In this document: piece after piece, positions 2,484 through 16,763 of the stretch
Layout: the number at the start of each line of letters is the position of its first letter
Numbering within the stretch: position 1 is the stretch's first letter
From: Candidatus Spechtbacteria bacterium RIFCSPLOWO2_12_FULL_38_22
GTDB lineage: Bacteria > Patescibacteriota > Minisyncoccia > Spechtbacterales > 2-12-FULL-38-22
Length of the DNA: 39,246 bases
Reading direction: 5' to 3'
Assembly: GCA_001820055.1 (NCBI GenBank)
Contig: MHOK01000024.1
Coordinates: 1-39,246 of the forward strand
Position numbers and translations under genes: made by a program
Notes under the pieces: model-generated
The model's input: the letters and a program-made list of their open reading frames with translations, nothing else
Told to the model about the DNA's origin: nothing
Databases searched by the model: none

Positions 2484-4432
<1,949 letters not shown>

Positions 4433-5981: not shown

Positions 5982-6056
5982 GCGCGTGTAGCTCAGTTCG
6001 GTTAGAGCACGCCTCTGATAAGGGCGAGGTCCTAGGTTCGAATCCTAGCACGCGCA
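5982..6056 (+). tRNA. tRNA-Ile (GAU anticodon)
   Basis: Full cloverleaf: 7-bp acceptor stem (GCGCGTG with CACGCGC), D arm GCTCAGTTCGGTTAGAGC, anticodon loop CTGATAA with anticodon GAT, and T arm CTAGGTTCGAATCCTAG. Discriminator base A. CCA is not encoded. It is one of the two tRNAs normally found between 16S and 23S. Confidence 0.95.
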
Positions 6057-6125
6057 CTGATTTTTGTCCAAATCTTTGATTTGGTTACAAAAATCAGTGC
6101 CAGCCGTAGCGTAGCGAAGGCTGGC
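6055..6125. repeat. Two nested palindromes directly after tRNA-Ile
   Basis: First hairpin 6055-6099: outer arms of 13 bp (CACTGATTTTTGT and its complement) and an inner CCAAATC/GATTTGG hairpin. Its first two bases are the last bases of tRNA-Ile. Second hairpin 6099-6125: GCCAGCC/GGCTGGC around a loop with GTAGCG twice. A related sequence with GCGAAGGCTGG lies inside ssb at 31956-31990. Together they form the 5' flank of the GIY-YIG ORF and could terminate tRNA transcription. Confidence 0.75.
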
Positions 6126-6380: not shown

Positions 6381-6428
6381 TCCGCCTACATTTCATTACG
6401 GCGGACAAATTTTGCAAGGCGAAATTTG
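6381..6428. repeat. Paired palindromes after the first GIY-YIG ORF
   Basis: TCCGCC (6381-6386) pairs with GGCGGA (6400-6405), then CAAATTT (6406-6412) with AAATTTG (6422-6428). The second ends on the first base of the truncated tRNA-Ala copy. Confidence 0.65.
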
Positions 6429-6462
6429 GGCCCGTAGCTCATCTGGTAGAGCGCCTCACTTG
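6428..6462 (+). pseudogene. 5' half of a broken tRNA-Ala
   Basis: These 35 bases equal 6770-6804 of the intact tRNA-Ala exactly. The copy stops after anticodon bases 34-35 (TG of TGC), where the cassette at 6463 begins. Its other half restarts with base 36 at 6858. Confidence 0.9.
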
Positions 6463-6485
6463 TCCCGATTTCTACAAATTTTGAA

Positions 6486-6731
6486 ATGTTTTATTTTTAT
6501 ATTCTAAAATCTAAGAAATTTGGTACATATTATATCGGTATTTCTGGTAATATTGAAGAACGTTGGAAAGCCCACAACAATGGTTTGGTTAAGTCTACTA
6601 AATATAAAAGACCCTGGTCAGTAGTTCACAAAGAAGGTTTCTCAACATTGAAACAAGCAAGAAAAAGAGAATTATATATGAAATCTTTAAAGAGTAGGAA
6701 AGCGATTGAGGGCTTAATAAAACATATTTAA
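6486..6731 (+). CDS. Stand-alone GIY-YIG nuclease inside the tRNA-Ala cassette
   Basis: An 81-residue single-domain GIY-YIG protein: FYFYIL at the N-terminus, YYIGISGN for the second motif, Arg and His in ERWKAHN, and Glu in KRELYMKSL. It is clearly related to the protein at 6135-6380 and to the TrmD insert but not identical, so these are older relatives rather than fresh copies. The start codon lies 6 bp after the left inverted repeat and the stop directly before the right one, so the ORF fills the loop of a long hairpin. No promoter or Shine-Dalgarno motif is clear; it could be read from upstream tRNA transcription. A role as the homing nuclease that cut the tRNA-Ala gene is a hypothesis. 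Confidence 0.85.
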   Translation: MFYFYILKSKKFGTYYIGISGNIEERWKAHNNGLVKSTKYKRPWSVVHKEGFSTLKQARKRELYMKSLKSRKAIEGLIKHI

Positions 6732-6769
6732 AATTTGTTTAGAAATCGAGGATTCTCGATAACAAAGGT

Positions 6770-6842
6770 GGGCCCGTAGCTCATCTGGTAGAGCGCCTCA
6801 CTTGCACTGAGGAGGTGGCAGGTTCGAGTCCTGTCGGGTCCA
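6770..6842 (+). tRNA. tRNA-Ala (UGC anticodon)
   Basis: Complete cloverleaf: acceptor GGGCCCG with CGGGTCC (one G-U), anticodon stem CCTCA/TGAGG, loop CTTGCAC with anticodon TGC, and T arm CAGGTTCGAGTCCTG. Discriminator A. CCA is not encoded in full. Flanking 12-bp inverted repeats extend the acceptor stem to 19 nearly perfect pairs, which is unusual for a bacterial tRNA precursor. Confidence 0.95.
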
Positions 6843-6857
6843 CCTTTGTTATCGGAA

Positions 6858-6878
6858 CACTGAGGAGGTGGCAGGTTC
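6858..6878 (+). pseudogene. Fragment of the 3' half of the broken tRNA-Ala
   Basis: These 21 bases are identical to 6805-6825 of the intact tRNA (anticodon base 36 to the start of the T arm). The fragment begins exactly where the 5' half at 6428-6462 stops, then is cut off by another palindrome starting TTCCGAT. Confidence 0.85.
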
Positions 6879-7034
6879 TTCCGATTTTGTCTCCGCAAGG
6901 CGGAGTAACAAAATCGAGAATCCTCAATATTTCATCAAAATCAAAGATTTTGGAAATATCGGGAGAGTCTTGTTGTGTCCAACAAAATAAACGTTTCAAT
7001 CCGCCAGCTGGCGGATTGAAACGTTTATTTTGTT
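6876..7034. repeat. Stack of palindromes downstream of tRNA-Ala
   Basis: Three structures: CCGATTTTGTCTCCGC against GGCGGAGTAACAAAATCG (about 6881-6914); ATATTTCATCAAAATC against GATTTTGGAAATAT (about 6927-6960); and a perfect 54-bp palindrome without a loop at 6981-7034, centred on CCAGCTGG. The last is followed after 15 bp by the tag -10 box. No gene is seen here. Confidence 0.8.
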
Positions 7035-13125: not shown

Positions 13126-13409
13126 GGTTTTGTCCGAAGGTATAACCATAGTGGTATGGATTTACCTTTGGATTTATCAACAATATTAAAACTCAAGGGC
13201 ATATGGAGGATGCCTTGACACCAAAAGGGGAAGAAGGACGTGGTGTAGCTGCGAAAAGCCTCGGGTAGGTGCGTAGCAACCTTTGATCCGGGGATATCCG
13301 AATGAGGAAACTCGATGCGGCAAAACCGCATCACCCTGTCGTAAGACATGGACCGTACCCGCTGAAGTGAAACATCTTAGTAAGCGGAGGAAAAATATAC
13401 CGTAAATAT

Positions 13410-13507
13410 AGTGTGCTTTGCACATTGTACGTCGTTGATTGCAAATAGCTTGTCATTTTTATGATTTGCTATATTTGCGATATGCGATTTGCTGTGCATA
13501 GCACACT
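13410..13507 (+). other. Insertion in 23S near E. coli position 210
   Basis: An extra stem AGTGTGC/GCACACT encloses about 84 nt absent from E. coli between GAGGAAAA and ATTCCC. It resembles the intervening sequences that RNase III removes in other bacteria. Confidence 0.65.
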
Positions 13508-13787
13508 GGTATTCCCTTAGTAGCGGCGAGCGAAAAGGGATTAGGACCCCTTAGGGGGTCCGTAGCCCAAAATCTGCGAATTGTTTACAATACGCAGGTG
13601 GTAGTAGGACTATTTTTTCGCGAGCGAAATTTTAGAAAAATAACTCTGGAAAGTGTAACCAAAGAGGGTAAAAGTCCCGTATTTAAAAAAATTGAACTCG
13701 TTAAATAGTATCCTGAGTAACTCGAGACACGACCACCTCGAGTGAATCATCCCGAACTATCGGGAAAGGCTAAATACTTTTGGTGAT

Positions 13788-13824
<37 letters not shown>

Positions 13825-13882
13825 CAGCCCGGTTAGGGCGGTGAAATAGAACCTGAAACCATATGCCTACAAGGAACAGGAG

Positions 13883-13963
13883 CCCCTCACTTGGTTTTAT
13901 GAATTATTTAATTATAGTTTTTTTTAAAGCTAAAATTATTTGTTCGTAGATCCAAGTGAGGGG
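13883..13963 (+). other. Intervening sequence in 23S helix 25
   Basis: A perfect 12-bp stem (CCCCTCACTTGG and its complement at 13952-13963) closes an AT-rich loop of about 57 nt. Helix 25 is a classical site of excised intervening sequences. Confidence 0.75.
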
Positions 13964-14621
13964 TGACTGTGTGCCTTTTGTAGAATGATCCAACGAGTTA
14001 TTTTATACTGCAAACTAAGTCCTGATAAGGATGTAGTTACAGGGAAACCGAGTGTTAATAGCGCGAACATGAGTTTTTTTGATAGGAAAAATCCTATCAA
14101 AAAAATTCAAATGTAGTATGAAATAGACCCGAAGCCAGGCGATCTACCCATGACCAGGGTGAACCCCGAGTAATATCGGGGGGAGGCCCGAACCCACTTC
14201 CGTTGCAATAGAAGGGGATGAGTCGTGGGTCGCAGTAAAAAGCTAATCGAGCCTGGTAATAGCTGGTTCTCTCCGAAATAGCTTTAGGGCTAGCTTTCGG
14301 TTATAGATTTATGAAGGTAGAGCACTAATTGGTCTATCAAGGCTTATGCTGAGATTGATCAGATAAACTCCGAATTTCATAAATTGTTTCCGAAAAGTTA
14401 GAATATGGGGGCTAAGCTTCATATTCAAAAGGGAAACAGCCCAAATCGCAGTCTAAGGTCCCCAAATGCAAGCTCAGTGGGAAAGGATGTGAAATTTCTT
14501 GAACAGCTAGGAGGTTGGCTTAGAAGCAGCCATCCTTTAAAAAGTGCGTAACAGCTTACTAGTCGAGAGATTTTGTGCCTAAAATTTAACGGGGCTTAAG
14601 CTTGCTACCGAAGACGCGGAT

Positions 14622-14726
14622 GCCACCGCATCTCATTTTGTTTGATATGAAATTTAAAATTTCTAATTTTCAATTTAAAAATTGTTTAAAAATTTTTTCA
14701 TATCGAGCACAGCGAGATGTGGTGGC
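14622..14726 (+). other. Intervening sequence in 23S helix 45
   Basis: GCCACCGCATCTC (14622-14634) pairs with GAGATGTGGTGGC (14714-14726, one G-U). The 79 nt inside are AT-rich with a second stem (GATATGAAA against TTTTCATATC). Helix 45 is another classical intervening-sequence site. Confidence 0.75.
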
Positions 14727-15429
14727 GTGGTAGGAGAGCATTTCTATTGCGCTGAAGTTGCATCGTAAGGTGTGATGGAGCGATAGGAAGAGAGAATGTT
14801 GGAATGAGTAACCACAAGTAGGATGAGAGATCCTACCGCCAAAAGCCTAAGGTTTCCTTGGCAATGACAATCAGCCAAGGGTTAGGCGGGCCTAACCCTG
14901 ACTCCGAAAGGTGGCAGGGGATGGACAGCCGGTTAATATTCCGGCCCTTCCTATTTACATGATGGAGTGACGGAGACTAATAAGGAGAGCATATTATTGG
15001 ATTTGTGTTTCTATTCTGGAGAGGTTCTTGGGAGAAATGCCCAAGAGGCTTAATTGCAACTTCAATTGAATGGAAAAAGTTTCGCTACGGCGAAGCTATT
15101 CTCCCCAGCAGTCTTCCGAGAAAAACTTCTAAAGTTAATAAATAGGAACCCGTACTGCAAACCGACACAGGTGGGCAAGTAGAGTATACTAAGGCGAACG
15201 AGTGAATCTTCGTCAAGGAACTCGGCAAATTAGCTAGGCGTAAGTTCGCAATATGCCTTCCCCGATTAAAACCGGGGCGCAGCTAAAGTTTTCCTAGCGA
15301 CTGTTTATCAAAAACACAGGTCCCTGCGAACTCGTAAGAGTATGTATAGGGGCTGACGCCTGACCAATGCTGGAAGGTTAAGAGTCGTTTGTTGTTCGAT
15401 TTATCGTGCAGCTTGTGACTTAAGCCCCA

Positions 15430-15480
<51 letters not shown>

Positions 15481-16031
15481 TGGTAACTTCAGACCCGCAC
15501 GAATGGCGTAACGACTGGGAAACTGTCTCGACGAAGAGCTCGGTGAAAATGCAATGAGGGTAAAGATGCCCTCTACCCGCGGAAAGACGGAAAGACCCCG
15601 GGAGCTTTACTATAGCTTTCTATTGTTTTGGCGTTTTAGATGCGTAGCGTAGTGGGGAGACTTTGAAGTTCCGCTTTTGGGCGGAATGGAGTCATCAATG
15701 AAACACCCATCTTTTGAAATGCCATAACTAACCTCGATTTAATAAATCGAGAGACAGTGGATGGTAGGTAGTTTAAGTGGGGCGCTTGCCTCCTAAACAG
15801 TAACGGAGGCGTTTATTAAGGTCAGCTAGCTACGGATGGAAATCGTGGCGGTCGTGCAAAGGCATAAGCTGGCTTAACTGCAAGGCATATTTGCCGCGCA
15901 GATGCGAAAGCAGAACTTAGTGAACCGACCTTCTTTTATAGAAGAGCGGAAGATCATCAGATAAAAGCTACCCCGGGGATAACAGGCTGGTCGCCTCCAA
16001 GAGTCCACATCGACGAGGCGGTTCGGCACCT

Positions 16032-16369
16032 TTATTAAACATATTGGGGTGCTACAACAGTAATGTTGTACCTGTTTTTCAAGAAAAGCATACTTGAAGA
16101 AAAATAAAAATTCGGCTTATAACGGTGAACTCCGTATATAGACACTATCGAAAGGTAGAATGCATATACGGACAATATCGTGGGAAGTTCGACCTAAAGT
16201 GTCGAACCCCTTAGAGACTGACCCGAAAGGGAAGGTTCTTCGAAAAAATTCGAAGGACAACACGCCGACTCCTATTACAAAAAGCGAGACTATGGCCAAG
16301 AACACCTAATGTCCGCAATAGGATGAAGATATAGTCCGAACCTCTTGGTAACAAGAGAAAAATCGACAG
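16032..16369 (+). ncRNA. Group I self-splicing intron in 23S (after E. coli U2500)
   Basis: The exons GGCACCT and CGATGTCGG join to the normal peptidyl-transferase loop sequence. P1 is clear: exon GCACCT pairs with GGGGTGC at about 16056-16062, leaving the required U-G pair at the 5' splice site. The intron ends in G. The P7 strands GAGACTAT and GATATAGTCC (about 16285-16292 and 16327-16336) have the classical sequence. There is no homing-endonuclease ORF inside. Confidence 0.88.
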
Positions 16370-16455
16370 CGATGTCGGCTCATCGTATCCTGGGGCTGGA
16401 GCAGGTCCCAAGGGTTTGGCTGTTCGCCAATTAAAACGGTACGCGAGCTGGGTTC

Positions 16456-16486
<31 letters not shown>

Positions 16487-16763
16487 TCCGTGGGCGTTGA
16501 ATCTTGAGGTGGGTCGCTCCTAGTACGAGAGGACCGGAGTGAACGAACCTCTGGTGTACCAGTTGTCGTGCCAACGGCATAGCTGGGTAGCTAAGTTCGG
16601 AAGGGATAAGTGCTGAAAGCATATAAGCACGAAGCCTGCACCAAGATTAGGATTCTTAGATTCCCGCTAGACTAGCGGGTTGATAGGCTACAGGTATAAG
16701 CTCCGTAAGGAGTTAAGCCGAGTAGTACTAATAAATCATTTTTAAGTTGTTGTTTTTAAAACA

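Follow-up and report, generated by a model that had tools for sequence, protein, structure and literature searches.

Integrative elements with tRNA attachment sites insert into a tRNA gene by means of an integrase and restore one end of it, and engineers have devised home-and-rescue drives as a way round resistance in essential genes. The synthetic home-and-rescue (HomeR) drive is an engineered Cas9 system in Drosophila (PMC7968924). In fungal mitochondria, mobile endonuclease ORFs (mORFs) bring with them a foreign 3' end for their target, as in atp6 of Allomyces and in atp6, atp9, cox2 and nad3 of Glomus (PMC3630166). The mitochondrial DNA of Allomyces also contains double-hairpin elements (DHE; Paquin 2000, as cited in PMC2800124), described as two hairpins located in genes and spacers, without target duplication. 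Phage T4 SegB is a free-standing GIY-YIG homing endonuclease of a tRNA region (PMC2988022). The rRNA genes of CPR bacteria hold insertions with homing endonucleases, among them many introns; the endonucleases are mostly LAGLIDADG, and the sparse GIY-YIG genes were judged to lie outside homing (PMC11270868).

The window, by which we mean the whole stretch of DNA analysed here (39,246 nucleotides), is contig C24 of a 623-kb genome in 24 contigs (G000). It contains a tRNA-Ala(UGC) gene, hereafter the outer tRNA, that is interrupted within its anticodon by a 395-nt element bearing a GIY-YIG nuclease gene and a second, complete tRNA-Ala(UGC), the inner tRNA (Table 1). The original prediction placed the split at anticodon base 35/36, and the alignment confirms it: the two outer fragments are identical to the inner tRNA at 35/35 and 21/21 positions, and both break exactly at G35/C36. 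Because the matches are exact, adjoin the same base and recur in the same layout in independent assemblies, they cannot be attributed to chance. The insert likewise has precisely the predicted length and short inverted ends (TCCCGAT...ATCGGAA). The 3' fragment does not stop at 6878, as had been proposed; there a second insert of 86 nt breaks the T-loop after GGTTC, and the tRNA resumes beyond it. Once joined, the outer tRNA is complete at 73 nt, matches the inner copy at 70/73 positions and is read by ARAGORN as tRNA-Ala(tgc). Its three differences from the inner tRNA, C62U, C66U and G68U, each weaken pairing, and the predicted fold goes from -33.4 kcal/mol for the inner tRNA to -21.3 kcal/mol for the joined outer one. 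A match search found no intact tRNA-Ala(UGC) in the window's genome other than the inner copy, whose completeness had also been predicted. Across the genomes searched, one Ala(UGC) tRNA per genome is the rule, and in G000, G064 and G126 that tRNA is the inner copy.

Table 1. Features of the interrupted tRNA-Ala locus and its upstream neighbours, in window coordinates.
Feature	Position	Strand	Evidence
tRNA-Ile(GAU), upstream neighbour, usual Ile-Ala pair	5982..6057	+	ARAGORN; Rfam 71.6 bits
GIY-YIG ORF number 1, 81 aa	6135..6380	+	Pfam PF01541 57.2 bits
Outer tRNA-Ala(UGC) 5' half, last base is anticodon base 35	6428..6462	+	35/35 identical to inner tRNA
Whole inserted element, 395 nt, ends TCCCGAT...ATCGGAA	6463..6857	+	Same ends in relatives
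Unit 1: first hairpin, loop holds GIY-YIG gene	6466..6748	+	Complementary arms; inverted repeats
GIY-YIG nuclease, 81 aa	6486..6731	+	PF01541 55 bits
Central motif ATCGAGGATTCTCGAT between the two hairpins	6745..6760	+	Exact pattern in 15/132 relatives
Unit 2: second hairpin, loop holds complete tRNA; arms ATAACAAAGGTG/CACCTTTGTTAT	6757..6854	+	Complementary arms; inverted repeats
Inner intact tRNA-Ala(UGC)	6770..6842	+	ARAGORN; Rfam 65.6 bits
Outer tRNA-Ala middle part, anticodon base 36 to T-loop	6858..6878	+	21/21 identical to inner tRNA
Second element: 86-nt miniature double hairpin without genes, in outer tRNA T-loop	6879..6964	+	T-loop miniatures also in L059/L161, L144
Outer tRNA-Ala 3' tail GAGTCTTGTTGTGTCCA	6965..6981	+	14/17 identical to inner tRNA tail

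Several further features were observed around the locus and elsewhere in the genome. GIY-YIG ORF number 1 ends 47 nt 5' of the outer tRNA-Ala and may represent an earlier insertion of this type. The 16S (2484-3915) and 23S (13183-16750) rRNA genes of the window lie 9 kb apart, with the Ile and Ala tRNAs and protein genes between them; the 23S rRNA match runs ~640 nt beyond the length of the model, so the 23S gene probably contains insertions. A perfect 27-bp inverted repeat without a loop (6981-7034), immediately 3' of the outer tRNA, is probably a terminator. The palindrome CCTGCCTGCCGGCAGGCAGG sits in the D-loop of several G000 tRNA genes (L011, L014; contigs C2, C3), the hosts being tRNA-Leu 5' fragments and a tRNA-like gene near L011 806-881. 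At L012 (G000:C1), positions 770-1075, a tRNA-Gly-like gene holds a group I intron in its anticodon loop (RF00028, 83.7 bits).

The predicted 81-residue nuclease is present in the block, and its PF01541 score compares with a cut-off of 22.6 bits. It meets the signature of the GIY-YIG superfamily with the catalytic Tyr, Arg, His and Glu, and Tyr5, Tyr16, Gly18, Arg26, His30 and Glu62 are invariant in 13 relatives. Relatives in the PDB include UPF0213, SLX1 and I-TevI. The protein consists of the catalytic domain alone; no module for DNA binding could be recognised, which counts against the home-and-rescue reading set out below. Its gene is the only plausible one of the 395-nt element. An integrase-type tRNA-integrating element was rejected because there is neither an integrase nor an att duplication restoring one tRNA end. 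Nuclease lineages group by target tRNA, requiring 36 label changes as compared with 65 after shuffling. Between two nuclease copies in one genome (L147 and L150) dN is 0.026 and dS 0.41, which we take as a sign of use.

The 395-nt and 86-nt inserts have a common double-hairpin plan: TCCCGAT, a hairpin, ATCGAGGATNCTCGAT, a second hairpin and ATCGGGA, with variation at the ends (T(C/T)CCGAT on the left, ATCGG(G/A)A on the right) and a centre resembling ATCGAGGATNCTCGAT. In the larger insert, the 12-bp arm of hairpin 2 continues the acceptor stem of the inner tRNA-Ala. The arms are paired at pair 9 in 35/41 and 34/38 instances, against ~19-21 when shuffled. The pairing counts of the arms are otherwise biased, as elements were selected for stems of at least 8 pairs and pair 9 alone lies outside that selection; some palindromic copies, moreover, were entered on both strands. 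Exact copies of the central motif reach at most 12 sites in one genome, and a reversed-pattern control gave 0. Further copies of the block ends, for which the original prediction had called for a search, were found in four forms: miniatures of ~50-90 nt without genes, nuclease only, nuclease with tRNA, and tRNA only. The nuclease-bearing copies that lack a tRNA have the same ends as the others. The base at the left junction is preferentially G (31/38) and that at the right junction C (22/38). No direct repeat longer than 1 nt was found at 46 junctions, and hence no target-site duplication such as a classical IS or MITE would be expected to leave. Miniatures occur in many kinds of gene, unrelated ones included, and also within the open reading frames of UvrA and LeuRS, where the frame is kept; their presence in unrelated genes implies some transposition beyond homing, by means that remain unexplained. 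At L050 (G003:C9, minus strand ~1447-1264) a tRNA whose acceptor stem is of the Ala type is split at its anticodon loop by a hairpin (CCCGTTAGACAT/ATGTCTAACGGG) enclosing an entire tRNA-Ala(CGC); no nuclease gene is present there.

A tblastn search with the window nuclease found it in 86/132 genomes, and a separate scan of GTDB contigs yielded 80 named loci. Among 107 distinct nuclease relatives, 58 have an intact tRNA on the same strand that starts 0-120 nt downstream. With ~43 tRNAs per genome this would happen by chance at a rate of ~0.4% per locus, so that ~0.4 loci would be expected. In another 25 an intact tRNA ends within 130 nt upstream, and 24 have neither arrangement. The downstream arrangement is typical of Patescibacteria (26/33 named loci), while the upstream one is found in Acidobacteriota, Chloroflexota, Armatimonadota, Bacteroidota and others (20/30 named loci), the nuclease there often being followed by a 3' relic of the same tRNA. 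Loci L183, L187, L189, L207, L210 and L211 (Armatimonadota, Acidobacteriota) have this mirrored order of full tRNA, GIY-YIG gene and 3' tRNA fragments. At L210 and L211, tRNA bases 44-77 are repeated ~93 nt apart, as if successive insertions had each rebuilt the 3' end.

The arrangement was worked out for thirteen tRNA-Ala loci, counting that of the window, and the 5' break is at base 35/36 in every case; at L136 and L200 the outer 5' half alone was recovered. The plan is seen in Ryan-, Yanofsky-, Kerfeld-, Moran- and other Patescibacteria. The anticodon of the inner tRNA equals that of the outer one in 13/13 (ten UGC, three CGC), and the intact tRNA sits in the loop of hairpin 2, whose inner arm is GGTG/CACC in most. 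In 11/13 the inner tRNA is only 46-86% identical to the outer halves, which indicates that it came from elsewhere and is not a local duplicate; the exceptions are the window (100% over the halves) and L149 (94% over the 5' half). Other tRNAs are broken at other points: Glu after base 11, Gln after 12-25, Met after 25, Trp after 36 and Lys after 39.

An uninterrupted target, which the original prediction had expected among relatives, does exist. In G126 the cassette is present together with a T-loop miniature element, and G086, of the same family, has an uninterrupted tRNA-Ala in which GGGCCGATAGCTCAGTTGGTAGAGCACCTCGTTTG is joined directly to CAACGAGGGGGTCTGGAGTTCGAATCTCCATCGGTCCA, at TTTG/CAAC. 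Both genomes have a tRNA-Ile upstream, with 88.6% identity around it. Only three genomes of the window's own family were available, and the comparison stands at family level, not at strain level. A homing element should have its own target occupied while an empty allele exists; judged from sequence, this criterion is met at the family level for a homologous cassette, not for the window's family. At L049 (G001:C30, minus strand, ~1475-1425) a complete tRNA-Ala 3' half from base 36 is preceded by a window-type right end (TTATCGGAA / TGTTATCGGAA); the contig stops ~240 nt upstream, before the 5' half. An intact tRNA-Ala(UGC) was not found in the available contigs of G001.

The targets extend to protein genes. 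At L061, L147 and L150 a nuclease element lies in a Cys codon (TG/C) near the start of a zinc-ribbon gene, and an intact gene of the same kind follows directly, with a different spelling at the break (e.g., CAAAACTG and CAAAAAAG on the two sides of the break, as against CAGAATTGTAAATCTG). L142 has the same layout in rpmE (Ribosomal_L31, 104 bits), with a broken 5' piece, the element and an intact, differently spelled copy. Unlike at the tRNA-Ala loci, the intact copy at these four loci is outside the hairpins. L147 and L150, from one genome, are nearly identical between the ATG that opens the broken piece and the point where the intact gene begins, after which identity drops, so this stretch appears to move as a unit; their hairpin 2 has one compensatory pair change.

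Whether the element itself brought the intact tRNA can be questioned. If it inserts anywhere, and tRNA cases are seen only where a nearby duplicate already existed, then no rescue is carried. The variety of genes hit by miniatures would suit such survivorship, as would the intact copies outside the hairpins at L142, L147, L150 and L061 and the near-identity of inner and outer tRNA in the window. Against this, the intact tRNA of the Ala loci lies inside the element, mostly within the same inner arm of hairpin 2, and is usually of a different tRNA lineage from the outer one; the nuclease is kept in frame and under constraint, and the same-anticodon pairing in every locus is not expected from random capture. 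We consider survivorship unlikely, though not to be dismissed. A local tandem duplication, a recombination artefact or an assembly error near a tRNA gene adjoining a nuclease could explain the 70/73 identity in the window, but would leave unexplained why the break, the ends and the order are repeated in many genomes that were assembled separately and in different projects, why inner and outer sequences differ in most loci and why the second insert has the same ends. Such an origin is barely credible.

The insert might instead be an intron, spliced from the outer tRNA by itself or by proteins, in which case both tRNAs would be made. The precision of the insertion is compatible with this, ARAGORN still reads the joined outer halves as tRNA-Ala in L062, L137, L138, L146 and L174, and at L012 this genome does contain a group I intron in another tRNA gene. 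The insert, however, matches no intron family: a group I or II intron in tRNA-Ala was rejected for want of an Rfam match (no RF00028 in the region) and because the insert is preceded by G and ends in A, where group I introns would be expected to have U and G. In addition, the window's outer tRNA carries a second insert and three pairing-weakening changes, outer genes elsewhere are damaged (L056, L059, L149, L067 and others), the miniatures in UvrA and LeuRS lie in open frame, and an intron would make the inner spare tRNA needless. We regard splicing as quite unlikely.

The reading we favour, and hold to be probable, is that a small mobile endonuclease element of Patescibacteria has inserted into an essential tRNA-Ala gene and carries the replacement with it, as a natural home-and-rescue element whose cleavage, homing and rescue-copy resistance are inferred. 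Its body consists of two adjoining hairpins, the first of which has the GIY-YIG gene in its loop, and it has entered the tRNA-Ala(UGC) anticodon at the 35/36 boundary without target duplication. An insertion that destroys this tRNA would be lethal, were it not for the tRNA-Ala with matching anticodon that hairpin 2 encloses in its loop; the spare tRNA would take over and the outer gene decay. By inference, the nuclease would cleave the anticodon of tRNA-Ala genes that lack the element, and the cassette would be copied in when the break is repaired from a filled gene, the tRNA halves serving as homology arms. That an insertion brings a full tRNA copy, as the original prediction had it, is supported by the recurrence, the empty site, the divergent inner tRNAs and the sole intact copy, with cutting and movement remaining inferences. 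What goes beyond that prediction is the wider double-hairpin family defined by the ends, the T-loop miniature, and the similar disruption of other tRNAs and protein genes.

The outer site is broken in every filled locus, and the inner tRNA differs from it in most; a diverged or recoded replacement fits a copy that escapes the nuclease, its resistance being inferred. The window departs from this pattern, as its inner tRNA is identical to the outer one over 56 nt around the break (L149 is similar in the 5' half), so that a nuclease whose recognition is confined to this sequence would be expected to cleave the rescue copy as well. The unrecoded inner tRNA thus weakens the homing part of the proposal for the window copy. 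Gene conversion may have overwritten it, the nuclease may recognise sequence outside the tRNA, or the window copy may have lost the ability to home.

On a broader scale, these elements could represent natural home-and-rescue drives: a widespread bacterial double-hairpin class whose GIY-YIG nucleases home into essential tRNA and small protein genes with a diverged replacement of the same function, so that native tRNAs were replaced repeatedly across Patescibacteria, and with a mirrored form (tRNA, nuclease, 3' relic) in Acidobacteriota, Chloroflexota, Armatimonadota and Bacteroidota. For this wider proposal we see the chances as even. If the engineered drives do have a natural counterpart in many lineages, with genes as essential as any for its targets, selection has reached the same solution and natural nuclease-rescue pairs are available for testing. 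Such a counterpart would further account for the frequent position of intact tRNA genes in these tiny genomes, directly after a small GIY-YIG gene with tRNA debris, and would provide a route by which a foreign tRNA replaces the host's own. The miniature double hairpins would offer a bacterial, enzyme-linked model for the mitochondrial double-hairpin elements, whose mobility is unexplained.

Comparison with the described systems places the element among several partial likenesses. As with SegB, a GIY-YIG gene adjoins tRNA genes, and SegB promotes inheritance of its region, but it sits between tRNA genes, splits none and has no spare copy inside hairpins. The rRNA insertions of CPR bacteria resemble it in that homing elements occupy genes for structural RNAs, and the bacteria are the same; the text of that study does not mention tRNA (PMC11270868). 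Elements using att sites share insertion into a tRNA gene with restored function, whereas the window element has no integrase and no duplicated att core and carries a whole tRNA. The mitochondrial double-hairpin elements also consist of two hairpins without target duplication, a likeness only, as no sequence relatedness was shown; no encoded enzyme or gene cargo is reported in the accessible portion of that source, while the bacterial chromosomal elements have nuclease-bearing and tRNA-bearing forms. In the open-licence literature, which leaves out most subscription papers and bioRxiv, we found no description of GIY-YIG elements in CPR tRNA genes, nor of a tRNA-nested nuclease element that contains a spare tRNA. 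The principle that an endonuclease element restores its target with a carried part is already known; the bacterial double-hairpin class itself appears to be undescribed. A parallel in the way of working comes from the fungal mORFs, where an endonuclease in an essential gene is accompanied by a divergent replacement of the disrupted part and a native relic. By analogy the criterion they set (endonuclease, divergent replacement, displaced remnant) is met, as a likeness of working and not as membership, with the reservation that the window's replacement is undiverged. The mORFs differ in replacing a C-terminal coding end to give a hybrid gene, whereas the bacterial element contains a whole tRNA between double-hairpin ends. 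HomeR, which is not natural, shares the logic of an essential gene disrupted by homing and a functional replacement carried along.
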